Shown here: piece after piece, positions 1,994 through 32,685 of the stretch
Numbering within the stretch: position 1 is the stretch's first letter
Layout of the letters: every line of letters begins with the position of its first letter
Origin: an uncultured Clostridia bacterium
GTDB taxonomy: Bacteria > Bacillota > Clostridia > Christensenellales > Aristaeellaceae
Direction of reading: 5' to 3'
Length of the DNA: 64,000 nt
NCBI GenBank assembly: GCA_947166385.1
Contig: CAMVEB010000005.1
Coordinates: 62,001-126,000, forward strand
Translations under genes and position numbers: made by a program
Notes under the pieces: model-generated
What the model saw: only the letters and a program-made list of their open reading frames with translations
The model's database searches: none
What the model was told of the DNA's origin: nothing

Positions 1994-2022
1994 TTGCATC
2001 CGGGTCCGGAAAAGGGTACAAT
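1994..2022 (+). promoter_or_regulatory. Promoter of the ParB-BMP gene
   Basis: TTGCAT (1994-1999) and TACAAT (2017-2022) with exactly 17 bp between them. The predicted start of transcription, near 2029, falls inside the palindrome at 2025-2046. Confidence 0.7.
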
Positions 2023-2024
2023 AG

Positions 2025-2046
2025 GCCTGTGCCATATGGCACAGGC
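2025..2046. promoter_or_regulatory. 22-bp perfect palindrome, candidate operator
   Basis: Half-site GCCTGTGCCAT is followed immediately by its exact complement, with no mismatch in 22 bp. The core TGTGCC-N4-GGCACA has the size and symmetry of a helix-turn-helix dimer site. It covers the predicted transcription start, so a bound protein would block initiation or early elongation. It could instead fold as a hairpin in the leader RNA. Confidence 0.6.
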
Positions 2047-2071
2047 ATCTATTTTGGAGGTTTGTTTTTTC

Positions 2072-3997
2072 ATGGATCATTATGGAAAGGCCCGGCGTGA
2101 CGGGCTGCGGATTTATACAGCGGCGATCCAGGCCAATGCCGATCCTTATCTTCCCGTGCTGGAGAAAAAGGTACCCGACCTGGCGCAGCTGACCCGGCTG
2201 CCCCTGGGCGTGATGAGCATTCCCCTGTCCCGGGTGGTGGGCTCCGTATCTCAGGGGCGCTCCTTTGCCTTTACGGAGAATTTCCTTCCCATTCTGGACG
2301 GCGGCAGCGAGTTCGCCGCCAAGTGGGACCGCCTGTATGAAAGTGTGGAGGCGGAAGGCGTTTCCCAGCCGATCACCGCGCTGGAATATCTCGGATACTA
2401 CTATGTCATTGAAGGGAACAAGCGGGTTTCCGTCATGAAGGCGATGGGTGCCCGGGATCTGGAAGCCGATGTCACCAGGGTTTATCCCCCGCGGAGTGAT
2501 GACCCGGTGATCACCGCTTACTATGAATATGTGGATTTTGCGAAGGAAACAGGGCTGTACAGCATCCTGTTCACCCGCCCCGGCAGCTATCAGAAGCTGC
2601 TTTCCCTGCCCGGAATGCATACCGGGGATCGATGGACTGAGGATGAAATTCTCTCCCTGCGGAAGATTTTTCACTATTTCTCCGAGGTCTATGAGACGCT
2701 GCTGAAAGACGCGAAGGTTCTGCCTGTCGGGGATGCCTTCCTGATGTACCTGACCGCTTTTGGCTATCTGGATGTGCGCGATGAGGATCTGGACAAAACC
2801 AGGGAGCGTGTTCGCCTGATGGCCCGCGAGTTTGAAGTGCACGACGGCAAGGTGAACCTGGTGATGGACCGGGCGAATCCCGCCCCGGCTGTGCCGATCA
2901 TCGGCCAGCTGTTCCGTCCCTCCCGGCTGAAAGCCGCTTTCCTGTTCAACCGGCCCATTGAGGATTCCGCCTGGAATTACTGGCACAACCTGGGGCGCCT
3001 GGAAGCTGAAGAGACCATGGGCGGAAAGCTGGAGACCGTCACCTGTATCGTTCCCTCCCGGACGGATTTTGAAAAAGAGGTGGATCGGCTGATCAGGGAA
3101 GGCTATACCGCCTTCTTCGCAACCTCCCCGGTGATGCTCAACAGCATGATTGAGCCGGCGCTGACACATCCGGAGGCCCGGTTTATGTGCTGTTCCCTGC
3201 TGTCCAGCTATACCAATATCCGGACCTATTATATCCGCTTCTACGAGGCGAAGTTCCTGCTGGGGCTTGCCGCCGGCATTCTGTCTGAAAACGGGAAGAT
3301 CGGGTATATCGCCGACTTTCCCATCTACGGTTCCCCGAGCGCGGCCAACGCTTTTGCCCTCGGTGCCCGGATGGTCAATCCGAAGGCAAAGATTTATATG
3401 AACTGGTTCTCCGCCTCCTGGTACAACGATAAGCTGCCCTTCGAGGATCCGGAGATTACAGTCATCTGCAACCGGGACATCACCGCGCCGAAGCACGATG
3501 CCCGGGACTATGGCCTGTATACCCGGGACGGTGAAAACATTGTGAACATGGCCACGCTGATTCCGCGCTGGGGCCTGTTCTATCGCCTCTGCTCAGAAAT
3601 GATCCTCAACGGGACCTTCAATCCGGCTGAGAACAGGCAGAACGCCACCAACTACTGGTGGGGGCTGGGATCCCATATTCTGGATGTTGCTTTCTCCGCG
3701 CGGTTTGACCCCTATGCCGCCCGGATCATCAATCATTTCCGGCAGGAGCTGCGGGAGGGGTCCTTCTCCCCCTTCGAGGGAGAAATCCGCGATCAGAGCG
3801 GCAAACTCCGCTGTGAGGCGGACCGGATGATGACCCCTGCCGAAATCCTCTGCATGGATTACCTGGTGGACAATATTGTCGGGAATTTCCCAACCGAAAA
3901 GGAACTGATCGAGTCCGCCCGTCCGCTGGTTCGGCTTCAGGGAATACACGGAGAACTGATGCCCGAGCTTTCCTCCTTCAGCTGGAACAGAAAGTGA
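2072..3997 (+). CDS. Cytoplasmic BMP-family ligand-binding protein with ParB-like N-terminal domain
   Basis: 641 aa from ATG 2072, preceded by TTGGAGG; the open frame extends to 1943 but has no ribosome site there. Residues ~45-135 look like a ParB/sulfiredoxin-type fold (LGVMSIPLSRVVGSV, then YVIEGNKRVSVMKAMGARD, the usual place of the GxHR element). Residues ~286-560 are a BMP/Med-type periplasmic-binding-like domain (KAAFLFNR, FYEAKFLLGLAAGIL, GKIGYIADFPIYGSPSAANA). There is no signal peptide or membrane segment, so it should act inside the cell, as a sensor or regulator rather than an importer subunit. BMP domains bind nucleosides or other small ligands; the ligand here is unknown. The next gene begins 10 nt later and is probably co-transcribed. 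Confidence 0.75.
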   Translation: MDHYGKARRDGLRIYTAAIQANADPYLPVLEKKVPDLAQLTRLPLGVMSIPLSRVVGSVSQGRSFAFTENFLPILDGGSEFAAKWDRLYESVEAEGVSQPITALEYLGYYYVIEGNKRVSVMKAMGARDLEADVTRVYPPRSDDPVITAYYEYVDFAKETGLYSILFTRPGSYQKLLSLPGMHTGDRWTEDEILSLRKIFHYFSEVYETLLKDAKVLPVGDAFLMYLTAFGYLDVRDEDLDKTRERVRLMAREFEVHDGKVNLVMDRANPAPAVPIIGQLFRPSRLKAAFLFNRPIEDSAWNYWHNLGRLEAEETMGGKLETVTCIVPSRTDFEKEVDRLIREGYTAFFATSPVMLNSMIEPALTHPEARFMCCSLLSSYTNIRTYYIRFYEAKFLLGLAAGILSENGKIGYIADFPIYGSPSAANAFALGARMVNPKAKIYMNWFSASWYNDKLPFEDPEITVICNRDITAPKHDARDYGLYTRDGENIVNMATLIPRWGLFYRLCSEMILNGTFNPAENRQNATNYWWGLGSHILDVAFSARFDPYAARIINHFRQELREGSFSPFEGEIRDQSGKLRCEADRMMTPAEILCMDYLVDNIVGNFPTEKELIESARPLVRLQGIHGELMPELSSFSWNRK

Positions 3998-7565: not shown

Positions 7566-8348
7566 TCAGTCGATCCATTCGGACGGTGCCGGTACAATTC
7601 TCTCGTTTTCGTCAACCAGGTAAGCCCGGTGCCGGTCGTCCAGCACGGGTTTTTCCTTCAATATAAAACGTTCTTCCGGTACATGCAGATGAATGACCCC
7701 ATGTTCCATGATTATTTTGACATAATCATGAATGCTTGTCAATCGTTTTTCCAGTGCGACCCCGTACACCGTTGAGGCCGGGGAGTGGTGGTTATCGCTC
7801 CCGGCCGTCATAATCATGCCCCGTTCGCGCCCAAGTTTCATGGCTCTGGCATCGTCCAGCGCGTCATTGCCGGCGTTCGCGGCCTCGATCCCGTCGCAGT
7901 ACAGGTAGCCCAGCTTGATATCATCCATGTAGCCGCGCATCCGGAAAGGATGGGCCTGAATGACGCATCCGCCGGCTTTGTGTACTTCCTCCAGCTGCTG
8001 CCGCCGGGTCCAGTGTTCCATCTCCGGATGTGCTTTCATATACGATTTGCTCAGACCGTAAATCAGGTACTCATCCCAGCCGAAGTTCTGCTCCAGGCCG
8101 AAAAAAACATCCAGGCCGATCCGGTCTCCCTCTTCCTTCGCGTCCTCATAGCCGCGCCAGAACAGATCAATCCGCTGTTCCCAGGGCAGTTCGCGGTCTA
8201 CCGCCGTATTGCCCCCGAAAAAGTGATCCGTCATGATGATCCCGGTGTAACCGATATCCCGGTAAAATCGCGCGTGCTCCTTCCCCGTGCTGACCCCGCA
8301 TTTGCTGGCCAGGCAGGTATGCAGATGCGTTTCGTATAAAAAAGCCAT
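7566..8348 (-). CDS. PHP-domain phosphoesterase
   Basis: 260 aa, cytosolic. PHP metal motifs are visible: YETHLHT at the N-terminus, IIMTDHFFG, GLEQNF, CVIQAHPFR and TAGSDNHH. PHP proteins are metal-dependent phosphoesterases of varied substrate. This one differs clearly from the HisK-type PHP gene at 10454-11212, so it is not assigned to histidine synthesis. ATG 8348 follows GGAGGGG at 8 nt. It is first in a likely two-gene operon with the GGDEF/EAL protein. Confidence 0.8.
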   Translation of the reverse strand: MAFLYETHLHTCLASKCGVSTGKEHARFYRDIGYTGIIMTDHFFGGNTAVDRELPWEQRIDLFWRGYEDAKEEGDRIGLDVFFGLEQNFGWDEYLIYGLSKSYMKAHPEMEHWTRRQQLEEVHKAGGCVIQAHPFRMRGYMDDIKLGYLYCDGIEAANAGNDALDDARAMKLGRERGMIMTAGSDNHHSPASTVYGVALEKRLTSIHDYVKIIMEHGVIHLHVPEERFILKEKPVLDDRHRAYLVDENERIVPAPSEWID

Positions 8349-8365
8349 GATATGCTCCCCTCCGG

Positions 8366-8381
8366 CAGTCAGTCAGTCAGT
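8366..8381. repeat. Four tandem CAGT units in the 5' leader
   Basis: Four perfect CAGT units (ACTG on the transcribed strand) lie between the -10 element and the ribosome site of the PHP gene, over the predicted transcription start. Such short repeats can change in number by slippage. Confidence 0.7.
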
Positions 8382-8383
8382 AT

Positions 8384-8412
8384 ATATTACCCCCTCTTCA
8401 GGCAGAATTCAA
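8384..8412 (-). promoter_or_regulatory. Promoter of the PHP / GGDEF-EAL operon
   Basis: Minus-strand TTGAAT (8407-8412) and TAATAT (8384-8389), 17-bp spacer. Confidence 0.6.
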
Positions 8413-8433
8413 TCCCTGCCCTGCTGAAAAGAA

Positions 8434-8455
8434 AAAAGCGGCGCCGGCTGCTTTT
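8434..8455 (-). terminator. Terminator of the VWA gene
   Basis: A 9-bp stem (AAAAGCGGC with GCTGCTTTT, one G-T pair) and 4-nt loop, followed on the minus strand by a T-rich run. It lies just upstream of the PHP promoter. Confidence 0.65.
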
Positions 8456-8490
8456 GACAGACCGGCCCGCTGGTTTACAGGGCTGGTGGC

Positions 8491-10347
8491 TTACTGGATT
8501 TCTGTTTCCCGCTGCAGAAGCGTGACCAGGTAAACGAATTCTTCCTTGTATGGATCTCCGCTGACGCTTCCGCAGGAGCGGAGCAGTTCCAGGGCTTCCC
8601 CGCAGGAGGCGGTCCCTTTCCATTCGCACCCCTGCAGCAGCATCCCGACCTCGGCCACGGCGGCGGCGAACTTCATGTTGTCGCTGAGCGTTTCCGCGGC
8701 TTCCGGCCCTACCGGATACTCATACAGCCGGCTTTCCGTGCCTTCCGGTTCTTTTGCCCGGATGCTGACGGTCAGCATTTCGCCGGTCGGGTTCCCGGGG
8801 GCCGCTTCCCGGTAGCGGCTTTCCGCGGCCCCAAAGTCGAAGTCCGAGTCCGTCGGCACGATCTCATACAGAGCGGTCATCCTGTGGCCGCTGCCGATCT
8901 CGCCGCCGTCCTTCGTATCGTCCGCGAAGTCCTCCGCCGCCATCAGCCGGTCTTCATACCCGATGAGACGGTATCCCCGGACATAGGCCGGGTTGAAATC
9001 CACCTGGATCTTGACGTCTTTCGCCACGGTGATGAAGGTTCCGCCGCCCTCGGAGACAAGCGCCTTCCGGGCTTCATGGATCGTATCGATATACCAGCAG
9101 TTTCCGTTGCCGTAATCCGCCAGGGCTTCCATCTTGTTATCCTTGTAGTTGCCCATCCCGAACCCCAGGCAGGTCAGGCTGATCCCGCTCTCGCGTTTTT
9201 CCTCAACCATCCGCACCAGCTCGCCCTCGCTGGTCACGCCGACATTCAGGTCGCCGTCCGTTGCCAGGAGAATCCGGTTCACCCCGCCCGGAACGAAGTA
9301 TTTCGCTGCGATTTCATAGGCCCGCAGAATGCCTGCCGATCCGTTGGTGGATCCGCCGGCCTCCAGTTCAGAGATTGCCTCCATGATCCGTGTCTTCTCT
9401 CCGGCCCGGACGCCTTCGAGGACGACGCGGTCCTGGCTGGCATAGGCGACGATGGAAACAGTATCCTCCGGCTTCAGTTCCTCCAGCAGCATCAGGAAGG
9501 CGCGTTTCACCAGATCCAGCCGGTCTTCTCCCCACATGCTGCCGGAAGTGTCGATCAGGAACACCAGGTTGTGTCCCGGACGGTTTTCCTCTGTCTCCGT
9601 CCGCGCCTGCAGACCGATCTGCAGCAGTTTCGTCTTTTCGTTCCATGGGCAATCCGCGTATTCCACGGTTACGCCGAAGGGATCGTTTCCTGTCGGCTGG
9701 CGGTAATCATAGCGGAAATAGTTCAGCATTTCCTCAATCCGGACGCTGTCCGCCGGAACGGTTTCCCCGTCTAGGATTCTCCGCCGCAGCTGCGCATACG
9801 AGGAGGTGTCCACATCCGCCGCGAAGGTCGACATTGGGGAAGCGGCGGTGCTTTGGAACCGGTTCGTCGCGATGTGGGTGTATTCATCCGTTTGGAAAGG
9901 CATATCATAGGATCCCGGCCAGGATTCCATGGCGTAGCCTTCCTCGCACTCCGCGTCATACGCGCCCGCCGGGGCATAGTTCTGTGCCGGCGCCGACGTG
10001 CTGTAAGCCAGTCCTTTCATCAGGTCCCGTCCGTTTTCTTCCGGGTTCCGGGCCTTTTCGGTCTCCCCTTCCAGGATGCGGCAGGTGACCCGGTCCGCCA
10101 TACCCGTTTCCAGCAGGCGATGCTGCCGCTGGAAAAGCCGGACGGCTTCCTCCGTCGCTTCATCGAAAACACCAGTGCATTCCCCGGACAGGTATTCGAG
10201 CTCGATCAGTTTCTTCTGGAGGGCCGCAACTCTCTCCCCGGAGTCTCCCCTCCTCAGGATCTCATGGGCTTCCCCCAGCGCCGCGGAAGCCGCCGTGATG
10301 GTCAGCAGAACCGCCAGAAGCATCGCTGTAATTCTTTTCATTTTCAT
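8491..10347 (-). CDS. Secreted YfbK-like von Willebrand factor A protein with peptidoglycan-binding domain
   Basis: 618 aa. A signal peptide covers residues 1-~25. Residues ~28-95 form a PG_binding_1 domain (LRRGDSGERVAALQKKLIEL, then GVFDEATEEAVRLFQ). After a short linker comes the YfbK arrangement: a vWF_A N-terminal region (STFAADVDTSSYAQLRRRIL), a VWA domain with complete MIDAS (FLIDTSGSMW, GGSTNGSAG, LLATDGDLNVG) and a C-terminal domain. VWA domains bind partner proteins through a metal; the N-terminal domain suggests cell-wall anchoring. The partner is unknown. ATG 10347 follows AGGAG. It is monocistronic, between the his terminator and its own terminator. Confidence 0.85.
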   Translation of the reverse strand: MKMKRITAMLLAVLLTITAASAALGEAHEILRRGDSGERVAALQKKLIELEYLSGECTGVFDEATEEAVRLFQRQHRLLETGMADRVTCRILEGETEKARNPEENGRDLMKGLAYSTSAPAQNYAPAGAYDAECEEGYAMESWPGSYDMPFQTDEYTHIATNRFQSTAASPMSTFAADVDTSSYAQLRRRILDGETVPADSVRIEEMLNYFRYDYRQPTGNDPFGVTVEYADCPWNEKTKLLQIGLQARTETEENRPGHNLVFLIDTSGSMWGEDRLDLVKRAFLMLLEELKPEDTVSIVAYASQDRVVLEGVRAGEKTRIMEAISELEAGGSTNGSAGILRAYEIAAKYFVPGGVNRILLATDGDLNVGVTSEGELVRMVEEKRESGISLTCLGFGMGNYKDNKMEALADYGNGNCWYIDTIHEARKALVSEGGGTFITVAKDVKIQVDFNPAYVRGYRLIGYEDRLMAAEDFADDTKDGGEIGSGHRMTALYEIVPTDSDFDFGAAESRYREAAPGNPTGEMLTVSIRAKEPEGTESRLYEYPVGPEAAETLSDNMKFAAAVAEVGMLLQGCEWKGTASCGEALELLRSCGSVSGDPYKEEFVYLVTLLQRETEIQ

Positions 10348-18788: not shown

Positions 18789-20003
18789 ATGAAGAAACGT
18801 CTGATTGCGTTCCTGCTGGTCCTGGTCCTGCTGGTGCCGACAGCCTTGGCGGCCGCGGTGACGTATTACCGGGTGAATACGTCTTCACTGAAACTGCGCC
18901 AGCTGCCGGATGAGAAATCCACGGTGTTGGACAGCTTCCGCCAGGACTTTGCCCTGACCGTACAGCGGAAGGTCGACAGCAACTGGTCTTATGTCACCTT
19001 CACCAACGGCAGCGAAGGATATGTGCTGACCCGTTACCTGGCGAAGTCGAAGACCTACAGAGCCTATATCACGACGGATTATACGCCCATCCGCACCGGC
19101 CCGGCCTATAACTTCAGCAATGTGGGCACGCTGGCCCGCGGCGCGAAGGTGACGGTCCTGACTCACGGAACCAAGTATGACTATGTCATCAGTTCCGTCG
19201 GCCGCGGTTATGTGCTGAACGCCCGCCTGAGCAAGAAGTACATCAAGCCCTCCGGCAAGCCTTCCACCCCGGCGTCCCAGGATGTGTACTACACCGCCTG
19301 GATCGTGAACCCGCAGGGTCCCGTGAAGCTGCGCACCGCTCCTTCCTCGAAGGCCAATGTAATCAACTCCTATCCTTCCGGGACACAGGTCACGGTATGG
19401 CAGCATAATCAGACCTGGGATTATATTGAAGTGGACGGGAACTTCGGATATATGCTGAATGCTTACCTGTCCAAGAACAAGCCGGCTCCCACGCCCACCG
19501 TGAAGCCGACCGATCCTCCCTTTGTAAGCTATGAAGCCTACATCACCAGCATCAACAAGGAAGGCGTGAATATGCGCCGTCATGCCGGCAAGGGATACGC
19601 GGCCATCATGGTTCTCCCCTACGGCGCCAAGGTCACCGTCCTGAAGGAAGGCGACTGGTATAAAATCCGGTACAATAACCGGGTCGGTTACGTGGAGCGC
19701 GAATATATCCAGCTGACGCCTCCCGATCCAAAGGTCACACCCAAGCCCAAGCCCACGGAAGAACCCGATCCCACGCCGGTTCCCTTCTCTCCCTACAAGG
19801 CGGAGATTACCTGCAAGGCTGGTGAAAAGGTCAATATCCGCGCCGGGGAAGGCAAGGGCTACAGGCACCTGGCCCGTCTGTCTCCCGGTGAAGTGGTCGA
19901 TGTCATCGAACCCGGTACGAAATATCCTGCCACCTGGGTAAAGGTGCGCTACGGCAAAATCGAAGGCTATGTGATGCTGAAGTATCTGAAGCGGATGAAG
20001 TAA
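18789..20003 (+). CDS. Secreted protein with five bacterial SH3 repeats
   Basis: 404 aa. Signal peptide 1-~22. Five SH3-like repeats follow, at roughly 25-85, 92-150, 168-232, 250-310 and 335-400; each ends in a GYV/GYM strand (EGYVLTRYL, RGYVLNARL, FGYMLNAYL, VGYVEREYI, EGYVMLKYL). Linkers 3-4 and 4-5 are Pro/Thr/Lys-rich (PTPTVKPTDPP, PKPKPTEEPDPTPVP). Such proteins usually bind cell wall. There is no catalytic domain, so it may be a wall-binding scaffold. Ribosome site AGAGGGG. A small membrane-protein gene follows 14 nt later. Confidence 0.85.
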   Translation: MKKRLIAFLLVLVLLVPTALAAAVTYYRVNTSSLKLRQLPDEKSTVLDSFRQDFALTVQRKVDSNWSYVTFTNGSEGYVLTRYLAKSKTYRAYITTDYTPIRTGPAYNFSNVGTLARGAKVTVLTHGTKYDYVISSVGRGYVLNARLSKKYIKPSGKPSTPASQDVYYTAWIVNPQGPVKLRTAPSSKANVINSYPSGTQVTVWQHNQTWDYIEVDGNFGYMLNAYLSKNKPAPTPTVKPTDPPFVSYEAYITSINKEGVNMRRHAGKGYAAIMVLPYGAKVTVLKEGDWYKIRYNNRVGYVEREYIQLTPPDPKVTPKPKPTEEPDPTPVPFSPYKAEITCKAGEKVNIRAGEGKGYRHLARLSPGEVVDVIEPGTKYPATWVKVRYGKIEGYVMLKYLKRMK

Positions 20004-20332: not shown

Positions 20333-20587
20333 TTATCCAGCCTGCTGCCAGGACACTTCACGCAGCCTGGTATTGTACCGGCTGTCCAGGCACATCCAGA
20401 TCTGGGCATCTTCCAGCGTCTGGAATCGGGGCACCCGGACCGGCGGAACCAGCCCAACCCGCTCATACTCCATCCGCACATACTGCCACGGCCGGATTTC
20501 CGGGATTTCATAGGAATCCCGCGGTACGGAAAACATCAGGGCATCGTTGATCGCCCGAATGGTACTTTCATTCATTCTGCTGCTCAT
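20333..20587 (-). CDS. Small hypothetical protein coupled to LexA-like repressor
   Basis: 84 aa, soluble, not recognised. Its ATG overlaps the repressor stop (ATGA) and has GGGAGG at 7 nt, so it is translated from the same message. Contains a run EIPEIRPWQYVRMEYERVGL and a basic C-terminus. It could be a small partner or antirepressor of the repressor, but nothing in the sequence proves that. Confidence 0.65.
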   Translation of the reverse strand: MSSRMNESTIRAINDALMFSVPRDSYEIPEIRPWQYVRMEYERVGLVPPVRVPRFQTLEDAQIWMCLDSRYNTRLREVSWQQAG

Positions 20588-21369
20588 GGACTTACCTCCC
20601 CGGCCTCCTCGGCCTGTTCAATTTGTTTCATCTGATCCGGTGTAGGAATCTGATCCTCCCGCAGTTTTCCAATGACCCGGCCGATACAGCGAACAGCCTG
20701 ATCCTCCCGGAACGTCATGGTCCGGTATTCAGGATTATGGGAATGGAGGCCATCCTTCCGGTATTCCTTGATGTACCCTTCCTGATCAACCAGGAAGATC
20801 CCAATCTCCCCTTCCCGGATTTCCCGGGTATGCTGCACCAGAACACGGTCTCCGTCGTAGAATGTAGGCTCCATGCTGCGACCGCATACCATGATGACTT
20901 CATCTGCCCGCTCGGTATCCCGGTCGGCCAGGAGTGTCACCTTTTCGCCCTGGGCCTCCCCCAGGTCGCCGCCGAACCCTGCCGCGGCTCCCAATTCGTT
21001 CATGAACAGGGTCACCGTCTTCGGGGCAGAGGCTGCATACCGCCGCTCTTCAGCGCGTTGGGCAGCCCGTCTTTCCTTCAGCCCTTCCATCTGCCAGGTG
21101 AGGCACTCCCTGTCCCCCTCTTCCAGGGAAAAGAAAAGCTCCAGCACCCGGGCCTCTTCTTCGCTGCGCCGGCGGGCAACACCGAAGAAAGCGTTCAGCG
21201 ATATTTTCAGGGTGGCGCAAAGAACCGGAAGTGAATTCAGATCGGGACGGGAATGATTTGTCTCCCATCCGGCCACCGTATTTCGGCTGACGCCGACGCG
21301 CTGCGCCAGTTCTGCCTGGTTCATCCCAAGGGCAACCCGACGCTGCCGGATCCGATCGCCGTAAGTCAT
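20584..21369 (-). CDS. XRE-family repressor with S24 LexA/CI-like peptidase domain
   Basis: 261 aa. The N-terminal HTH (residues ~5-60; AELAQRVGVSRNTVAGWETN) binds DNA. A charged linker of ~70 residues follows, then an S24 domain with GAAAGFGGD (Ala-Gly cleavage-type site), catalytic Ser in CGRSMEPTF and Lys in GYIKEY. Such proteins cleave themselves on RecA activation and release their targets. Inverted ATACC half-sites over its own promoter point to autoregulation. No phage genes surround it, so this is a stand-alone stress switch or a prophage remnant. Confidence 0.88.
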   Translation of the reverse strand: MTYGDRIRQRRVALGMNQAELAQRVGVSRNTVAGWETNHSRPDLNSLPVLCATLKISLNAFFGVARRRSEEEARVLELFFSLEEGDRECLTWQMEGLKERRAAQRAEERRYAASAPKTVTLFMNELGAAAGFGGDLGEAQGEKVTLLADRDTERADEVIMVCGRSMEPTFYDGDRVLVQHTREIREGEIGIFLVDQEGYIKEYRKDGLHSHNPEYRTMTFREDQAVRCIGRVIGKLREDQIPTPDQMKQIEQAEEAGEVSP

Positions 21370-21442: not shown

Positions 21443-22660
21443 TCATTTTGTGACGTTTCCTGTTTCCTCAATCACGCATTCCTGGAGAATATATCGGAAA
21501 CTGGGGGAAGAGGACTCGCTCATTTCCTTATAGCCCAGACTCAGATCGATCGTATCGGAAGGATTGTCCGGGCTCACTCCGATATAATTGCCCTTGAATA
21601 CATTGACCTTTTCCTTTTTGAAGGCATCGATCAGCTGGTTGATTTTCTCTTCCGTCCCTTCCACGGCAACCTGCTTGTTCAGCTCCAGCAGCTCCACCCA
21701 TCCCTGCTCAAAACCGGCGCTGATATCATTGCCGTGGAGATGGCCCGGTACATATTCTTCAATCACCATGTTTTTCATCACGGCTTCGGTAGCGCCGACA
21801 ATGTAGGGCACCCAATTGGTCCGGATGCTGGCCAGCGTGGTTCCCGGAGCCACATCCACCATGCTTTGGTGGTATCCCACATAGTAAATCCGGCGGCCTT
21901 CCCGGAAGGCTTCCTCGCAGGCGATCGCGGGCGCCAGGGTATTGGTATGCTGGGAGATCAGGACGCATCCTTCGTTGATCAGTTCCCTGGCCCGTTGTTT
22001 CTCCATGGAATAGTTGCTCCAGCTGCCGGTATAGCGGACGCGCATCACCGCGTCCGGCATCACGCTTCGGATACCCAGGATGAAAGCGGTATAGCCGCTG
22101 ATAACTTCTGCGCTGTTGTTGGCCGCCACATAGCCTACCTGGGCGTCCTCCGGAAGAATGATCCCGTTGTCCACCATATGCTTCAGCTTCATCCCTGCCG
22201 CAACGCCGGCGGCGTAGCGGGCCTGGTAGATTTCGCCGTTAAAGGTATGGTAGTTTTTGCTCCGCCCCTCCATGCTGATATCCGGCATCGAGATCTGGCA
22301 GAACTGCACATCTGGGTATTCCGCGGAAATATTCGCGGCCGCCGGGGTATCCTCATTGATAAAGATGATCTTGCATCCCTTCCAGACCAGATCCCGCAGC
22401 GGGTCCTCCGCTTCCTTGGCCGGCACGTTGCTCCGGGTCAGGATTTCCACTTTGTCACCGAACTGTTCTGTCAGAGCATACTGTCCCTGGACAAAATTGT
22501 ATGTGTAAGGGGTGCTTTCATCCTCAGAGTACAGGAATCCGACCTTCAGTGTCGCGTCCTCCGGACGCTTGTTCCAGAAGCCGTAGATCAGGCTGAAGGC
22601 AGCGAGCACCGCGATACTGATGATCACCGTTGCGATGATGTAGGGCATTTTCTTTTTCAT
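21443..22660 (-). CDS. Membrane-anchored BMP-family substrate-binding protein
   Basis: 405 aa. One N-terminal hydrophobic segment (residues ~6-28) without a clear lipobox or signal cleavage site suggests a membrane-tethered extracytoplasmic protein. The rest is a BMP/Med domain (KVGFLYSEDESTPYTYNFVQG, YQARYAAGVAAGMKL, QVGYVAANNSAEVISG). No ABC permease or ATPase is nearby. Instead it is last in an operon with a solute-binding lipoprotein and an HD-GYP sensor, so it more likely feeds ligand information to that sensor than imports a nucleoside. ATG 22660 follows GGAGGAG. Confidence 0.8.
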   Translation of the reverse strand: MKKKMPYIIATVIISIAVLAAFSLIYGFWNKRPEDATLKVGFLYSEDESTPYTYNFVQGQYALTEQFGDKVEILTRSNVPAKEAEDPLRDLVWKGCKIIFINEDTPAAANISAEYPDVQFCQISMPDISMEGRSKNYHTFNGEIYQARYAAGVAAGMKLKHMVDNGIILPEDAQVGYVAANNSAEVISGYTAFILGIRSVMPDAVMRVRYTGSWSNYSMEKQRARELINEGCVLISQHTNTLAPAIACEEAFREGRRIYYVGYHQSMVDVAPGTTLASIRTNWVPYIVGATEAVMKNMVIEEYVPGHLHGNDISAGFEQGWVELLELNKQVAVEGTEEKINQLIDAFKKEKVNVFKGNYIGVSPDNPSDTIDLSLGYKEMSESSSPSFRYILQECVIEETGNVTK

Positions 22661-22680
22661 TCAGCGCTCCTCCTCTCCCG

Positions 22681-25600
22681 TCAGGCCTTGCCCGTTCCGT
22701 CTCCGGACTTCTGTTCGTCCGTTTTTTCTTCCTTCGGCGCTTCCGGAGCGGTTTCCTCGGACTTCACGCCGTACAGCTTGTTCAGATCGATCACCCCGTC
22801 CCGGATCAGTTTCAGCAGGATGTCCACAAACTGCGGGTCAAACTGGGATCCCCTGCCCTTTTCCAGTTCATTTAGCACATAGCCGAAGTCCATCTGTTTC
22901 CGGTAGACACGGTTCGCGGTCATGGCGTCGAAGGCGTCCGCCACGCCGATGATCCGGGCAAACAGCGGAATATCTTCTCCCGCCAGTCCCTTCGGATATC
23001 CGCGCCCATCATAGCGCTCATGGTGAAATTCGGCGCCTTCCACCACATGATTCAACAGGGTGAAATCATTCAGGATCTCCGCCCCCCGCGTGGTATGCGA
23101 TTTCATAACCGCGTATTCCTCGTCCGTGAGCCGGGAGTCCTTGTTCAGGATCGCGTCCGGAATACCGATCTTGCCGATATCATGCATGTTGGCAGACCAC
23201 TCGATTTCCTGGCAGGCTGCGTCGTCCAGTCCGTACTCCTTGGCCATCTGCTTGGAATACAGGGCGACACGGCGGCTGTGGCCGCCGGTTCTAGGATCCT
23301 TGGCATCCACGGCCCGGGCAATGGCGATGACCGTCTGCTTGCCCATTTCCACCATGCGGTTGGCTTCTTCCAGTTCTCTGGCCATCCGCTGCTCCCGCCG
23401 TTTCACCGACAGCCAGACGAGCCAGGTGATCGTGAACATGGGTACTGTCAGGATATACAGCACAAACCAAGAATTGTCGTACAGTTCCTTTTCCTTGATC
23501 AGGGTATAGGTCCTTTCCTCCAGGACGGTCTCCTGGTTGTTGTCAAACACCGCCAGGTGGAAGGTGTAGGTGCCTGAGGGCAGGTTGGTATAGACGATTT
23601 TGCCCAGATCGTTCTGGGAAACGACGGTCCAGTCGCTGTCAAAGCCCTCCAGTTTATAGCCGACAAAAGGCTCCTGAATCGTGTAGTTGATGACTTCCGG
23701 ATTCAGCTCCACCCGGCTCGTTCCGCGGGTGATTTTGATGGGCGTGTTCCGGTTGAGACGGCGGTACACACCGTCCATCCGGGCGGAAGGAACGCTCATC
23801 CGGTACACCTTGGCCCCGCTGGTAAAGCGGATGGTGTTGATGACAAACACGCCGGAATCGCAGGGCAGGAACAGTTCCCCGGTCTCCTGATTGTACCAGG
23901 TCCAGCTGTTGGCGGTCAGGTTGCTGTTCAGGCCCCGCCGGGTATCCAGCAGCTCGTAGTTCAGGTCTTTCTTCCCGCTCAGCAGTTCTCCCCGGTCCGT
24001 CACATAGATCCCCGCACTGCTCATCACAAACAGGTCGTCCGTGCCGCGGATCCAGATATCGTAATTGTTGAAATAAGGGAAATTGTCCAGCTTCCGGACC
24101 GTCTCATCCGGATTCATGTAGCACAGACCGTTGCTGGTGACGACAAATACGCCGCCTGTCTTCGGATCCCGCACGGTCCGCAGGATGACTTCAGAACTCA
24201 GCCCGTCCTTCCGGGTCAGCATCCGGGAAACCTGCCGGTTCTCCAGTACGGCAATCCCGTTTCCGTCCGTTCCCGCGAGGATCCGGCCGTCTCCCATCTC
24301 TGTCACGGTCAGGATCATGGAGGTGATCTGTCCGTCCTGGTACAGGATGGTGCTCTGGATTTCATGATCCTTGATGAAACTGATCCCGGTATCTCCGGCC
24401 GCCATGATGGTGCCGTCTGAAAGCTCCTTCACCACTCGGGCCCGGTTTCCGAAGGTGCCGTTGTTTTTGTTGTATTCGTGCTGGGTTCCGTCCGGATCCA
24501 CTTCCAGCAACCCCTGGCTGTAGGTACAGATCCACAGATGGTTTCCCCCGTCCACCGTCATGCAGCGGATCCGGATGCCGGCCAGTTGTCGGGTCAGATC
24601 GTTCACAACCCGTTTTTCACAGGTCAGGTCTACGGCATCCAGTCCTTTGTCCGTGCCGATATAGTAGGCTCCCTGCCATTCTGCCACGGTGTTGACCACC
24701 TGGCTGGTCATTCCCGCCGTGGCATAAACATCCCGGAAATCGGAAGGAGCCATTCGCAGCAGGCCCAGCCGGGAAGAGGTAAACCACAGGTTGCCCTGGT
24801 AGTCCACCAGCATGTTGTCGATCGAGGTGTTGAAGTCGTTGGTGTTCACCCGGCGGAAAACGCCGTCCTCCCGGAAATAGCCTACTCCGTTGTCCGCGCT
24901 GACAAAGGTTTCACCGGAATCCAGCAGCGTCAGATCCTTGATGGTATTCAGTTCGCCGCACTCAAAAACGTCGGTTTCCTCGAAATACCCCTTGTTAATC
25001 AGGAAATGGTGGATTTTGTTTCCTGTCGTTCCGACAATCAGGTGGCCTTCCTCGTCAAAGGTACAGCTTTTAAAGACTTCGCCTTCTCCCTGGTTTTGCA
25101 GGGAGCTCAGGATTCTGCCGCCCTTCAGGAGGTACAGAACGCCGCTGTTGGTCACAGCCGCCACATGGCCTTCGCTGTCCGCCGCGCTGTCCTGCGCGTA
25201 GTAAATCTCCGCCAGCGTAGTGATCTTCCGCAGGCCGTAGTTCAGAGACAGCACCTGCATGCTTCCTGTCGTGCCGATGTAATAGTATCCGTCTGTGCTG
25301 CGGACAATCGACCGGACAGAATTGGCAGGCAGGCCGTTGCTCTGGTCCAGCACATTGACTACCTGCTCGTTGATCACGATGGACAGACCGTTATCGTTCG
25401 TTCCGATCCACAGGCGCCCTTCTTCATCCACATACAGGCAGTTGACATTCCGGACAGAATCGTACTGATCCATCCAGCGGAATTCCCGTCCGTTATAGCG
25501 GTACAGTCCGGCGTAGGTACCGATCCAGAGAATGCCGTCGTTTGTCTGGGCAATATCGTTTGCCTCGCCGCAGGGCAATCCGTTCTGGCTGGAATAGACC

Positions 25601-26334
25601 GTCTGGACATAATCGTTGTAATTGGTTTCCGTTTTCTCAGCGGATTCCGCCCGGGATATCCCGGTGCTTCCCGCCGCCAGCAGTCCGCCGGCCAGCAGGA
25701 TCGCGATGGCTTTCGCCGCTCCGGTAAACGCAGCTTCCTCTTCCTCGCTCTTCTCTACCGGCTGCTCCGGTGCGTCTTTTTTCCGGATGACTTTCAGCAC
25801 CGCCCGGAGAATTTTAACAATGATAAAGACAATCACCAGGGAAACCAGTTTGTCCAGCAGCTCCACATACAGCTGGCCGATCGGCATGCAGACAAAATCC
25901 GGAACGTCCTTTTCCCTCATGAAACCGATGACCGCGTCTCCCCATACATTGCCGGTGCTGCCGCCGTTCAGCAGGTAGTTCAGCGTCAGGGAGGCGATCG
26001 TTGCCCCGACGGTCACCATCACGCAGGTGTTCAGCGTACCGAAGATCGTCTCAATGGTTTTCCGCTTCCCGGCAAGCCCGGCAATAACGCCGATCACAAT
26101 GCTCACCAGGCCGTACAGCCAGCTCGCGTTGCTGGTCATGGCAAAGAGCAGGTTGGACGTCAGGCCGACAATCGCGCCGATCACAGGACCTCCCAGATAG
26201 CCGGTCAGGATGGTGCCGGTCGCGTCCAGCCACAGCGGCAGCTGAAAGGTAGTCGTCAGCACCCGTCCGTAAAAATTCATCAGAATGCTCAGAAGTACCA
26301 TCAGGCAAAAGCCTGCCATCCTGCCTTTTTTCAT
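22681..26334 (-). CDS. ECF-S-like membrane / beta-propeller / HD-GYP sensory phosphodiesterase
   Basis: 1217 aa. Residues ~1-185 contain five or six hydrophobic helices resembling the S component of ECF vitamin transporters (LWLDATGTILTGYLGGPVIG). A further helix (~207-225) leads to an extracytoplasmic two-component-regulator propeller of about 600 residues with repeated LWIGT-type blades (GILWIGTYAGLYRYNG), then a Y_Y_Y domain (~880-945), another helix (~965-987) and a cytosolic HD-GYP domain. The metal residues are at HDIGKIG (1051) and HHERYDGRGYP (1104), predicting cyclic-di-GMP hydrolysis. An acidic low-complexity tail ends it. Joining an ECF-S-like module to a propeller HD-GYP is unusual. 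It sits between two binding-protein genes in one operon. Confidence 0.85.
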   Translation of the reverse strand: MKKGRMAGFCLMVLLSILMNFYGRVLTTTFQLPLWLDATGTILTGYLGGPVIGAIVGLTSNLLFAMTSNASWLYGLVSIVIGVIAGLAGKRKTIETIFGTLNTCVMVTVGATIASLTLNYLLNGGSTGNVWGDAVIGFMREKDVPDFVCMPIGQLYVELLDKLVSLVIVFIIVKILRAVLKVIRKKDAPEQPVEKSEEEEAAFTGAAKAIAILLAGGLLAAGSTGISRAESAEKTETNYNDYVQTVYSSQNGLPCGEANDIAQTNDGILWIGTYAGLYRYNGREFRWMDQYDSVRNVNCLYVDEEGRLWIGTNDNGLSIVINEQVVNVLDQSNGLPANSVRSIVRSTDGYYYIGTTGSMQVLSLNYGLRKITTLAEIYYAQDSAADSEGHVAAVTNSGVLYLLKGGRILSSLQNQGEGEVFKSCTFDEEGHLIVGTTGNKIHHFLINKGYFEETDVFECGELNTIKDLTLLDSGETFVSADNGVGYFREDGVFRRVNTNDFNTSIDNMLVDYQGNLWFTSSRLGLLRMAPSDFRDVYATAGMTSQVVNTVAEWQGAYYIGTDKGLDAVDLTCEKRVVNDLTRQLAGIRIRCMTVDGGNHLWICTYSQGLLEVDPDGTQHEYNKNNGTFGNRARVVKELSDGTIMAAGDTGISFIKDHEIQSTILYQDGQITSMILTVTEMGDGRILAGTDGNGIAVLENRQVSRMLTRKDGLSSEVILRTVRDPKTGGVFVVTSNGLCYMNPDETVRKLDNFPYFNNYDIWIRGTDDLFVMSSAGIYVTDRGELLSGKKDLNYELLDTRRGLNSNLTANSWTWYNQETGELFLPCDSGVFVINTIRFTSGAKVYRMSVPSARMDGVYRRLNRNTPIKITRGTSRVELNPEVINYTIQEPFVGYKLEGFDSDWTVVSQNDLGKIVYTNLPSGTYTFHLAVFDNNQETVLEERTYTLIKEKELYDNSWFVLYILTVPMFTITWLVWLSVKRREQRMARELEEANRMVEMGKQTVIAIARAVDAKDPRTGGHSRRVALYSKQMAKEYGLDDAACQEIEWSANMHDIGKIGIPDAILNKDSRLTDEEYAVMKSHTTRGAEILNDFTLLNHVVEGAEFHHERYDGRGYPKGLAGEDIPLFARIIGVADAFDAMTANRVYRKQMDFGYVLNELEKGRGSQFDPQFVDILLKLIRDGVIDLNKLYGVKSEETAPEAPKEEKTDEQKSGDGTGKA

Positions 26335-26347
26335 GAGTCATTCCTCC

Positions 26348-27280
26348 TTACAGTCCAAGCTCGTCCGCCCGTTTCTGTGCTTCCTCGTACCACTGCATGT
26401 AAAGGCCCTGGCTGAGCATTTCATCAATCACGCCGTTGACGAAATACATCAGCTCCAGTTCGCCCTTCTTCGCCGCGACCCGGTCTCCCTCGTACTGAGG
26501 CAGCAGCTTGAACTGGATGGCATCCACGATCATCAGGCCGCTCTCCGGGTTGTTCCGGATATAGCTCTCCGCGTAGCGCAGGTCTACCGTTCCTGCGTCC
26601 GCTTCCCCGCTGGTAACGGCATCGTATACATTCTGGGTGGTATTCAGGCGGCGGAACTCGCGGTAGTTATGAATGTTTTCCACCGTCAGCTGCTCCTGCA
26701 GGCTGCCCTGCTGGGCGACAATCACCCGGTCGGTCATATCGTCAATGCCCCTGATCTCCTCCGCGTCCTCGGCGCGGATGATCATCGTGCTGCTCACCGG
26801 CAGGTCCACAAAAAAGTAACCTTTGCTCAGTTCATTCGTCTGGGCCCGGCTCGGAAGGAAGGAAAGCGCCGAAATTGCCAGGTCGCATTCATCGTTCGCG
26901 GTCGCTTCCAGGACATCCGCGAAATCCTTCGGAATGATTTCCAGCGCGACGCCCATCTTCTCCGCAATCATCCTGGCAAAATTCATATCTGCGCCGACAT
27001 AGGTTTCCTGGCCTTCCAGTGCGGGATCGATAAACTCCTGCGGGGGAAAATAGGGCTCCGTCGCGACCCGCAGCACACCGCGCTCCCGGATCCTGGCCAG
27101 CACGCCGCTGGAGTTGGCCGGAATTCCCTTGCTGATGTCCATGCTTTCATCCACGAAATTCCACTGATTTTCGATGAAAACCCGATCCTCTCCCACAGCT
27201 GCGAAGCAGCCTGCCAGGCAGCATACCGCCGTCAGCAGGGCTGCAGCCTTTCTCAGGATTCCGCTGACCCTCTCCTTCAT
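26348..27280 (-). CDS. Family 3 extracellular solute-binding lipoprotein
   Basis: 310 aa from ATG 27280, chosen over GTG 27289 because GAGGGG lies 8 nt before it. Signal peptide with lipobox LAGC. The mature part is a PBPb domain (GVLRVATEPYFPPQEF, GADMNFARMIAEKMGVAL, DLAISALSFLPSRAQ, VIVAQQGSLQEQL), the fold that binds amino acids or other small polar ligands. No transporter genes adjoin. It starts the operon leading into the HD-GYP sensor (13-nt gap), so I infer a sensory role. Confidence 0.85.
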   Translation of the reverse strand: MKERVSGILRKAAALLTAVCCLAGCFAAVGEDRVFIENQWNFVDESMDISKGIPANSSGVLARIRERGVLRVATEPYFPPQEFIDPALEGQETYVGADMNFARMIAEKMGVALEIIPKDFADVLEATANDECDLAISALSFLPSRAQTNELSKGYFFVDLPVSSTMIIRAEDAEEIRGIDDMTDRVIVAQQGSLQEQLTVENIHNYREFRRLNTTQNVYDAVTSGEADAGTVDLRYAESYIRNNPESGLMIVDAIQFKLLPQYEGDRVAAKKGELELMYFVNGVIDEMLSQGLYMQWYEEAQKRADELGL

Positions 27281-30123: not shown

Positions 30124-31539
30124 TTAAGTCACTCTTCGGGTTTTTCCGGTCTCCCGGTAATGCTTCTCCTTGGCCGCGTACATTCGTTCGTCGGAAATCC
30201 GGATAATCTCCGCCAGGTTTTCCGACGGGAATTCCCGGCTTCTCGCGCAGCCGATGGAGATGGAGAGGCTTTTCACGGTGTTCCCGGACCAGGCGGCTGT
30301 TTTCCCTTCCAGTTCCCCCAACAGCGGTTCCATTTTCCCTTCCGGCACCTTCAGGATAGCGGCAAACTCGTCCCCGCCGATTCTGAATACCTTGCCATAC
30401 GGCTCAAGGCATTCCTTCAGGCATTCCGCTGCGCCGCGGATCAGTTCATCCCCTGCCATGTGGCCTTGCGTATCATTGGCTGTTTTCAGCCCGTTCAGGT
30501 CTGCTGTAATATATGTGAAATCTGGATCCAGCGGCATCCCTGCCAGCTGCTCTTTTTCCTCCTCGAAAGCCCGCCGGTTCAACAGCTGTGTGGACTGGTC
30601 CCGGAAGGAAGCATGGGTCAGTGCCCGGGTTCGTGTAATGATGATCCGGATTGCGACCACCAGGACGCCCATGACCAGCAGGCACAGCCCGCCATTCAGC
30701 AGAAGCACATGGATCAGCTGGGAAGATTCATTCCGTCCGTCCGTCTGCACCACCAGGTACCAGCCCAGTTTGTCAATATATTTGGAGATGGCATACCGGC
30801 TCTCCCCCGCTTGCTGGAAAACATACCCCCCTTCCTTCCGGAGGGCAATACCCTCCAGACAGACCTTTTCAATTCTGGTTTCATCTGTATCTACTTTTAC
30901 CAAGCCCTGCGGATCCACCAGGCAGATTTCCGCCCTATAGTCCCGCTCCAGTTCCGCAAACAGGTCCTCGCTGCCGCGCATCCGGACACCGACGCCGCAG
31001 ACTCCCAGAAATGTACCATCGTCATCCTCGATCCGGGTATCGACAAAAACAGTCCATGCATCGTGCGCAAACTCATCCCGGTCCACATCCAGGTCGTATT
31101 CCGTGCCTTTTTCCAGGAACTCCTGATACCAGGCGTCCCGGGGATCCTCTCCGGGATGGATCACCTTGCTCATGCCATCGGAAGTGTAATATCGTTTGCT
31201 GCCGGCCGAGACCACGAAGGCTGTTTCATATTTCAGGCCTTCCCGCAGTCCAGCCAAGTAGGCCTTCATCGTGCCGGACGCTTCCGCGTCCCCATACCGG
31301 TTCTCACGGCGAAGCATATCCCGCAGAAAACGGTCATGAGACATGGTTCTGGAAACAATGACCGGTTCCGAAAGCTGGCTGCTGATGCTGTCATAGATCC
31401 GGGACGCCAGGGCCTTGCTCAGTTCCTCCATGTTCTGCCTGCCCAGCATCCGAAGTGACCAGAGCGAAACAAACGTGGACATAAAGAAACAGAGGAAAAC
31501 AATGATGAAAGCCAGCCTGGTAATCTTACCCCGGTTCAT
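30124..31539 (-). CDS. Diguanylate cyclase with extracytoplasmic Cache-type sensor
   Basis: 471 aa from ATG 31539 (GGTGAG site). Transmembrane helix ~9-31, then an extracytoplasmic ~250-residue region resembling a double Cache sensor (YETAFVVSAGSKRYYTSDG, WTVFVDTRI, GWYLVVQTDGRNES), a second helix (~282-304), and a GGDEF domain with intact GGDEF at 388-392. Predicted to make c-di-GMP when a small ligand binds outside. It lies just after the pilus operon terminator with no clear promoter of its own, so read-through from the pilus genes is possible. Confidence 0.88.
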   Translation of the reverse strand: MNRGKITRLAFIIVFLCFFMSTFVSLWSLRMLGRQNMEELSKALASRIYDSISSQLSEPVIVSRTMSHDRFLRDMLRRENRYGDAEASGTMKAYLAGLREGLKYETAFVVSAGSKRYYTSDGMSKVIHPGEDPRDAWYQEFLEKGTEYDLDVDRDEFAHDAWTVFVDTRIEDDDGTFLGVCGVGVRMRGSEDLFAELERDYRAEICLVDPQGLVKVDTDETRIEKVCLEGIALRKEGGYVFQQAGESRYAISKYIDKLGWYLVVQTDGRNESSQLIHVLLLNGGLCLLVMGVLVVAIRIIITRTRALTHASFRDQSTQLLNRRAFEEEKEQLAGMPLDPDFTYITADLNGLKTANDTQGHMAGDELIRGAAECLKECLEPYGKVFRIGGDEFAAILKVPEGKMEPLLGELEGKTAAWSGNTVKSLSISIGCARSREFPSENLAEIIRISDERMYAAKEKHYRETGKTRRVT

Positions 31540-31568
31540 TTGCTCACCGCCCGTTGATTGATGAAAAA

Positions 31569-31598
31569 CGGACTGTACATTTTGCACAGTCCGCAAAA
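31569..31598 (-). terminator. Terminator of the pilus-like operon
   Basis: 8-bp stem CGGACTGT / ACAGTCCG (31569-31593) followed by T5 on the minus strand. It lies between the PilT-like stop and the GGDEF start, so it may be a partial read-through point. Confidence 0.65.
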
Positions 31599-31611
31599 AA
31601 CTGATGACATT

Positions 31612-32685
31612 TTACCTCATGAAGCGTGCCTGCCGCTCCACGGTTTCGGGATGGATAGCAAGCAGGGACGCCTGCTCCTTGTCAATCTTGTTGTCCCGCA
31701 GGAGTCTCGCCAGTTCCGTATCCATGGAAAGCATATCCGCGCCGCCGCCGAAGATGGCGTTGTCGATCTGGTGGGTCTTGCCTTCGCGGATCAGGTTCTG
31801 AATCGCCGGATTGACGCACATGACCTCAAACACCGGATGGAGTTTTCCTTCCTTGGTCAGAATCAGGCGCTGGGAAACCACCGCTCGAAGCACCATGGAC
31901 AGCTGTGCCCGGATCTGGTTCTGTTGGTTGGCCGGGAAGGCGTCGATGACACGGTCAATCGTCTTGGCCGCACCCAGCGTATGCAGCGAGGACAGCAGCA
32001 GATGCCCGGTTTCCGCCGCGGTAATTGCGGTAGAGATCGTCTCAATGTCGCGCATTTCACCCAACATGATAACGTCCGGTGCCTGTCGCAGGGCCGCGCG
32101 CAGCGCTCTGGCAAAAGTGGAGGCATCGCCGGGAACTTCGCGCTGGCTCACCAGGCACTTTTTGTGAGGATGCAGGTACTCGATCGGGTCTTCGATCGTA
32201 ATAATATGCCCGCTGCGGGTCTGGTTGATCTTGTCCACGAGGCAGGCCAGGGTGGTGCTTTTACCGTTGCCGGCAGGCCCGGTGACCAGAATCATGCCGC
32301 TGCGAAGGTCTGCCAGCCGCATCACAACATCCGGGATATTGCAGTCAGCGGGGTTTGGAATGCCAAAGGCAACTGTACGGCAGGTCATGGCCAGTGAACC
32401 GCGCTGGCGGTAAGTGTTGCAGCGGAAACGGGACAAATCACGGATAGCGAAGGAGAAGTCATCGTCGCCTTCCTCCTTCAGAGTTTCCCGTGTTCTGCCA
32501 GCCAGTTCATAGGCCCGATCCACCAGCCCGGCGATGTCGTTCGGCAATGCCCGATCCTGGGTAACGGCAATCATTTTTCCACTGGATTTTGTCATCACAG
32601 GCGAACCAGGTACAACGAAAATATCGGAGCCCTTGTATTCCAGTGCTTTTCTCAGAATCTCATCAAGTGTCTCTGTCATTCCCAT
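31612..32685 (-). CDS. pilT: PilT-type secretion/retraction ATPase
   Basis: 357 aa hexameric P-loop ATPase of type IV pili. Walker A GPAGNGKSTT, Walker B VIMLGEMRD, His box HLLLSSLHT and the PilT-signature AIQNLIREGK (consensus AIRNLIRE). PilT normally depolymerises the pilus. It is the only ATPase of this operon, so it may here power extension as well or work with a PilB encoded elsewhere. Start may be 32685 or 32679. Overlaps the upstream pilin-like gene by 10 nt. Confidence 0.9.
   Translation of the reverse strand: MGMTETLDEILRKALEYKGSDIFVVPGSPVMTKSSGKMIAVTQDRALPNDIAGLVDRAYELAGRTRETLKEEGDDDFSFAIRDLSRFRCNTYRQRGSLAMTCRTVAFGIPNPADCNIPDVVMRLADLRSGMILVTGPAGNGKSTTLACLVDKINQTRSGHIITIEDPIEYLHPHKKCLVSQREVPGDASTFARALRAALRQAPDVIMLGEMRDIETISTAITAAETGHLLLSSLHTLGAAKTIDRVIDAFPANQQNQIRAQLSMVLRAVVSQRLILTKEGKLHPVFEVMCVNPAIQNLIREGKTHQIDNAIFGGGADMLSMDTELARLLRDNKIDKEQASLLAIHPETVERQARFMR

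Follow-up and report, generated by a model that had tools for sequence, protein, structure and literature searches.

A candidate solute-binding-protein-assisted receptor with c-di-GMP output, built on an S-component-like domain, a double propeller and HD-GYP, in Clostridia

What do two extracellular binding proteins of different families serve when the gene between them encodes a receptor ending in a c-di-GMP enzyme domain? The question is raised by a locus within a 64,000-nucleotide stretch (as a whole referred to as the window) of an uncultured rumen bacterium of the Clostridia. The initial annotation described a three-gene operon with spacings of 13 and 20 nt and without transporter subunits, and both statements were borne out: the three successive minus-strand reading frames have gaps of 13 nt (PBPb to receptor) and 20 nt (receptor to BMP), and the operon has no permease or ATPase gene. 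The receptor was read in the order S-component, internal signal-peptide-like segment, double propeller, Y_Y_Y, transmembrane helix and HD-GYP (Table 1). Pfam E-values were 1.9e-41 for HD_5 and 9.1e-20 for Reg_prop in the receptor (Y_Y_Y in Table 1), 4.2e-24 for Bmp in gene 3 and 9e-17 for SBP_bac_3 in gene 1.

Table 1. Coordinates of the three genes and their parts in the window.
Feature	Position	Strand	Basis
Gene 1: SBP_bac_3 (PBPb) solute-binding protein, 310 aa	26348..27280	-	Pfam, alignment
Gene 1 signal peptide; LAGC lipobox of the window copy not conserved	27188..27280	-	boundary by eye
Gene 2: receptor, 1217 aa	22681..26334	-	Pfam, NCBIfam
ECF S-component-like membrane domain (residues 1-190)	25765..26334	-	
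Internal signal-peptide-like segment ending SRA/E (residues 205-229, +1 = E230)	25648..25722	-	by eye
Extracellular double beta-propeller (about residues 240-885)	23680..25617	-	by eye
Y_Y_Y domain (residues 893-944)	23503..23658	-	Pfam, E 9.5e-11
Transmembrane helix leading to cytoplasmic output (about residues 957-979)	23398..23466	-	boundaries by eye
HD-GYP domain, intact site (residues 1006-1168)	22831..23319	-	Pfam, conservation
Gene 3: BMP-family binding protein, 405 aa, AtzT/3s99-like purine-base pocket	21443..22660	-	Pfam, alignment
Probable N-terminal membrane anchor of gene 3 (about residues 8-28)	22577..22639	-	by eye

The surroundings were inspected in the same window. No riboswitch was matched in Rfam up to E 1 between positions 20000 and 29000. 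Between 21200 and 27480, 2 promoter-like sites (3.4 ± 2.1 expected) and 8 terminator-like sites (5.3 ± 2.6 expected) were counted, and no reading was built on either scan. A gene for an HTH/peptidase S24 (LexA/CI-like) regulator lies behind the BMP gene (20587-21369, minus strand), with a similar gene at the same place in 7 loci, the window counted. A GGDEF protein that matches dCache weakly (30127-32685, minus strand) is encoded some 3 kb away from the operon, next to a PilT-like ATPase gene and pilus-like genes recognized by eye. On the plus strand (2009-3994), there is a gene for a 662-aa protein whose sole Pfam match is a BMP domain (residues 308-473); it is possibly a cytoplasmic BMP-fold protein.

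Relatives were collected in a family set, 150 genomes of the window's family (G000-G149), and in a named set, the best 80 of at least 536 relatives in a propeller-profile scan, selected by propeller similarity. Together these gave 93 distinct receptors of 101, eight loci being common to both. The S-component query matched 22 of the 150 family genomes, and 21 of these had a receptor frame of 1178-1305 aa; G120 had a shorter paralogue only, with no receptor-length frame. S-component, propeller and HD-GYP occurred together in 80/80 named loci (best 80) and 20/20 family loci. For the 20 family loci besides the window's, PBPb was upstream in all and BMP downstream in 19 (19/19 testable); the L052 contig stops before BMP, and the BMP of L056 is shortened by a contig end. 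Among the best 80 named loci, BMP was directly downstream in 74 of 74 testable cases, overlapping the receptor gene by 4 nt in 49 of them (the window gap is 20 nt), and in the six loci without it 144 nt or less of contig remained. PBPb was upstream in 54 of the 76 testable named loci of the same best 80 (L112, L127, L140 and L154, with under 900 nt upstream, were untestable). The 22 loci missing it comprised 19 labelled Lachnospiraceae or Butyrivibrio, two labelled Clostridia (L088, L151) and one Ruminococcaceae (L161). When six PBPb-less genomes were searched whole, five gave no PBPb match at E 1e-20 and L164 gave weak matches only; PBPb was present in two Chloroflexi-labelled genomes in the same search. 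These absences do not form one clean clade: the smallest clade to take in 20 of them spans 40 tips, of which 17 carry PBPb. The company of the three genes expected from the initial annotation was therefore upheld for BMP in all testable loci, but the full set is not universal.

Tree distances correlated between propeller and BMP (r = 0.92, n = 83) and between propeller and PBPb (r = 0.77, n = 59), and 0/2000 permutations were as high; co-inheritance by descent could explain much of this correlation. Outside full-receptor frames, 21 propeller matches were obtained in the class search, and 17 of these unfused relatives were examined. Most start with a signal peptide followed by the propeller (signal peptides by eye; a script detected a signal-peptide-like site in 15/17), and their outputs are HD-GYP in some and kinase plus receiver in others (kinase by eye). 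None of the 11 unfused propeller proteins with flanks (ten relatives and the own genome's second copy) had a BMP neighbor, and L207 had a weak PBPb match upstream. Two full receptors fetched beside them (L213, L214) both had BMP. When the first two genes on each side were clustered within 2.5 kb, the largest cluster covered 15 loci and looked like mixed signaling proteins, and no transporter-like cluster was common to more than 5 loci.

For the receptor N-terminus, the NCBIfam profile ECF_S_CD3073 matched residues 12-178 with an E-value of 1.9e-16, at 60 bits vs. a curated cut-off of 180, and it matched 21/21 aligned receptor N-termini, the window protein included. The Pfam ECF_trnsprt score was 23.3 bits, under the cut-off of 30.7. 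The nearest family by sequence was the CD3073 S family, and the predicted fold matched the six-helix fold of S-components (best Foldseek E-value 4.4e-3). Profile match and predicted fold thus confirm the ECF-S-like N-terminus claimed earlier; by these scores the domain is a relative, not a member, of the curated S-component families. The AxxxA motif in helix 1 (EcfT docking), which the available part of PMC11109136 ties to ECF docking and transport, was absent in the window protein and present in only 9/93 distinct receptors. The S-component was the most variable receptor part (31-44% identity vs. 57-69% for the propeller). Because residues such as W35, D37 and K162 were invariant in 21/21 sequences, together with G40, T41, P50, N119 and D161, a conserved site is suggested.

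The predicted ectodomain fold matched the double propeller and Y_Y_Y of HTCS, the propeller matching the heparan-sulphate sensor BT4663. In the output domain, H1019, H1051, D1052, H1080, H1104, H1105, G1112, Y1113, P1114 and D1133 were each kept in 93/93 distinct receptors, in agreement with the complete HD-GYP site reported earlier. The HD and GYP motifs, with conserved positions that we take to be the metal ligands, predict a c-di-GMP phosphodiesterase. The window genome had 12 HD_5 matches and 54 GGDEF matches (53 over cut-off), so c-di-GMP signaling is plentiful in it.

Other propeller and S-component-like proteins were seen along the way. A second propeller protein of the own genome (L212 3943-7188, contig C19; 1081 aa, signal peptide by eye) did not match the HD-GYP profile built here. 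A second class, of 705-867 aa in 14 loci (L059 4959-7103 on own-genome contig C3, and L060-L072), combines an S-component-like N-terminus with another middle region and HD-GYP (Pfam on 5/14), and no BMP or PBPb neighbor was found in the examined stretches of the 14 loci. An S-component-like protein is fused to an ion-channel-like protein in L077 (745-2058) and stands directly behind one in L078 (702-2058) and L079 (708-2061); the channel was recognized as Ion_trans by Pfam in L077 and L078, and by eye in L079.

For gene 3, a BMP profile scan of the 150 family genomes was performed, with scores of >600 bits taken as operon-type. Operon-type BMP (607-691 bits) was found in 19/21 receptor-bearing genomes and in 0/129 others, where the best score was 316 bits. 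In the two receptor genomes lacking a full copy (G103, partial at 277 bits, and G125), the operon meets a contig end. Some BMP match at E 1e-60 was present in 93/150 family genomes, mostly a lower-scoring paralogue. Two paralogues (L228, L229) share their operons with genes for an ATPase and two permeases (roles read by eye), and the operon BMP therefore looks recruited from transport to sensing. The AtzT pocket residues Tyr45, Glu165, Trp194 and Asn220, taken from the available part of PMC6834077, were mapped by hand from the alignment to BMP Y52, E185, W214 and N240. These were kept in 78/83, 78/83, 77/83 and 74/83 (N or D) orthologues and jointly (Y/F, E/D, W, N/D) in 73/83, whereas the Ser97 position was variable among the 83. 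In the same genome, the BMP-type proteins L196, L199 and L200 were without most pocket residues, and the ABC-linked L197 has them. This pocket points to a purine base as the putative ligand. Purine gene neighborhood was rejected as support, since an apt-like gene lies close to the operon in no more than 5 loci, counting the window; in L214 only, an adenosine-deaminase-family frame (8160-9116) overlaps the BMP stop codon. From 88 rows came 68 distinct orthologues containing the motif used; all 68 have a hydrophobic 17-residue N-terminal segment, and 7 have a lipobox-like motif. Membrane anchoring is taken as probable because 23/88 rows also carry a signal-peptidase-I-like site.

Gene 1 was closest to amino-acid-binding proteins. 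Its R145 (59/59 aligned orthologues) and D228 (58/59) are presumably the equivalents of GlnH R75 and D157, the Arg and Asp gripping the alpha-amino acid, and the predicted ligand is an amino acid. The initial annotation called this protein a lipoprotein; the window copy has the lipobox LAGC, but this is no family trait: of 58 distinct orthologues containing the anchor motif used, obtained from 73 rows, 52 are signal-peptidase-I-like and 8 lipobox-like at the N-terminus.

Where the S-component gives way to the propeller, a linker that varies is followed by a hydrophobic stretch and then by the conserved motif A/V/S/T-x-A/E-or-D, whose last slash marks the putative cut. Across the 93 distinct receptors, position 229 was Ala in 84, position 227 was A in 46, V in 20, S in 7 and T in 7, position 228 was Arg in 54, and position 230 was E in 61 and D in 12. 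A signal-peptidase site was called there in 93/93 by a loose rule and in 91/93 by a stricter one. With the strict rule, control helices scored 3 (pre-HD-GYP), 7 (last S-component helix), 13 (H5) and 10 (H1) of 93, but H3/H4 scored 67/93, and 200 shuffles of the residues behind the hydrophobic core gave a mean of 52 and a maximum of 62 positives of 93, which leaves the motif by itself weakly specific. The linker had no net positive charge (mean K+R 2.1, D+E 2.4), and the region was of low confidence in the structure model (pLDDT about 40-70). Unfused relatives bear their N-terminal signal peptide at the place matching the internal segment; the first propeller motif follows the -1 residue at a median distance of 20 (13-40) in the fused proteins (n = 92) and of 31 (12-37) in the unfused ones (n = 15). 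This is as expected from an S-component gene joined before a complete signal-peptide-bearing sensor. The internal signal peptide is thus read from column conservation and from the unfused relatives. Tentatively, and at somewhat below even chances, it can be proposed that the receptor divides itself as a polyprotein: a cut by signal peptidase I would fall between 229 and 230 (AxA/E), yielding S-component and propeller/HD-GYP receptor 1:1, and the pieces would reassemble with the membrane-anchored purine-binding BMP, and often the amino-acid-binding PBPb, into a multi-nutrient sensor for c-di-GMP breakdown.

The operon, its domains and predicted folds, the conserved catalytic and pocket residues, the constant BMP company and the lack of the docking motif were obtained by computation. 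From them we infer ligand identity, docking, direction of effect and physiological outcome, and consider it probable that the operon is a solute-binding-protein-assisted receptor with c-di-GMP phosphodiesterase output. Outside the cell, the probably membrane-anchored BMP would bind a ligand resembling a purine base, and the secreted PBPb that many species have would bind an amino acid. Once loaded, these proteins would dock on the receptor, either at its HTCS-like double propeller/Y_Y_Y ectodomain or at the S-component; the latter may bind its own small ligand or tune the receptor while feeding no ECF transporter. By way of the Y_Y_Y domain and a single helix, the signal would then reach HD-GYP and alter c-di-GMP hydrolysis. 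Speaking against this reading are the loci without PBPb, the variable Ser97 position in BMP, and S-component scores under the curated cut-offs together with the best Foldseek E-value of 4.4e-3. The earlier idea of a nutrient sensor reporting to c-di-GMP fits the conserved HD-GYP site, the operon without transporter subunits and the missing AxxxA; what did not hold was the lipoprotein as a conserved feature, and PBPb is missing in 22 of the 76 testable relatives. Beyond that annotation go the internal signal-peptide-like junction, the propeller's resemblance to HTCS and the hint at a purine base from the BMP pocket.

Other readings of the same parts were weighed. The propeller could be the real (glycan) sensor as in HTCS, with the binding proteins as co-transcribed nutrient scavengers, and the BT4663 fold match, a propeller conserved far above the S-component and the 11 inspected unfused proteins without BMP neighbor speak for this. 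Yet operon-type BMP was not found apart from the S-component-bearing receptor and accompanies it in every testable case, the operon has no permease or ATPase gene, and BMP is probably anchored, so that we hold scavenging to be rather unlikely. Nor is it likely, by a similar if slightly lower estimate, that the S-component binds no ligand and serves passively for membrane anchoring or dimerization: its variability would suit that role, but the residues invariant in 21/21 sequences suggest a conserved site. Least probable, and in our view quite improbable, is an aid to uptake in which the S-component docks on a shared ECF module and imports the captured solutes while HD-GYP reports transport flux. 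The S-component fold and two CbiQ/EcfT-type genes elsewhere in the genome would allow it; against it stand the docking motif's rarity among the receptors, the lack, among the first two genes on each side within 2.5 kb, of a transporter-like cluster common to more than 5 loci, and an S-component tethered at both ends in a 1217-residue chain unless cut.

The receptor was patchily distributed, in 21/150 genomes of the window's family and 3/391 genomes drawn from its class. No full-length receptor was found outside the family in an order search of 248 genomes. In the class search (391 genomes), a propeller relative at E 1e-30 was found in 21 genomes and the three full receptors include the own genome's; the phylum search gave 7/398 genomes at E 1e-60. 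All three genes were present in two MAGs labelled Chloroflexi and Flexilinea (L139, L163), and among 81 genomes searched of the family of L139's genome the receptor was in that genome only; lateral transfer or misbinning may account for the operon in both. The remaining named loci (best 80) are labelled Clostridia or subgroups. Where titles name a source, most are MAGs from rumen and gut, and isolates among them include Butyrivibrio sp. NC2007 and XPD2006 and Lachnospiraceae AB2028.

Several known systems share parts of this design. HTCS of Bacteroides (e.g. BT4663, BT3049) have the double propeller and Y_Y_Y ectodomain fold with one helix inward, and their output is a histidine kinase, receiver and AraC, whereas here the output is HD-GYP, an S-component precedes and binding proteins are encoded alongside. 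XylFII-LytS pairs the transporter-free sugar-binding XylFII with a kinase sensor whose membrane part has an S-component-like fold; a transporter-free binding protein is likewise partnered with such a sensor here, but with BMP/PBPb, propeller and HD-GYP. In NspS-MbaA, a periplasmic binding protein controls a c-di-GMP enzyme. Like it, CdgH (PMC5431781) and RmcA (PMC8846402), as far as the available sections describe them, have binding proteins or PBPb domains controlling c-di-GMP enzymes, within the enzyme itself in CdgH and by SBP_bac_3 sensing in RmcA; no S-component or propeller appears in the descriptions of the three. A review notes that binding-protein domains are prevalent in c-di-GMP enzymes, although SBP_bac_3 is the only one of them to have been studied in such enzymes (PMC8846402, available part). 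The 5TMR-LYT/S-component-fold receptors, in the accessible text of PMC11109136, also use the S-component fold as a receptor with modular outputs including GGDEF and EAL; neither HD-GYP nor propeller occurs in that main text, and the window receptor adds a second extracellular sensor via the internal signal-peptide-like segment. ReeS of Clostridium perfringens, another Clostridia sensor, has Y_Y_Y and related repeats between two transmembrane helices but a histidine kinase output, with no S-component or binding-protein partner named in the excerpt of PMC3762733. The aromatic sandwich of Tyr and Trp with Glu and Asn/Asp in AtzT/3s99 is shared by the operon BMP, but AtzT is thought to serve uptake (PMC6834077, available part), whereas the BMP of this operon is probably tethered to the membrane next to a receptor, and Ser97 is not conserved in it. 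In open-access papers, no description of the S-component/propeller/HD-GYP and binding-protein combination was recognized.

If the proposal is true, binding-protein-assisted receptors, HTCS propellers and S-component-fold receptors, described apart in the literature examined, would be joined with a c-di-GMP output in a receptor type of many, not all, rumen and gut Clostridia, with a concrete ligand guess (purine base) and a putative processing site that are both testable. Should the polyprotein reading also hold, an internal signal peptide would have been the route by which an S-component left transport and joined a receptor complex. The finding would bear on how transporter parts turn receptor and on which external signals drive c-di-GMP in gut bacteria.
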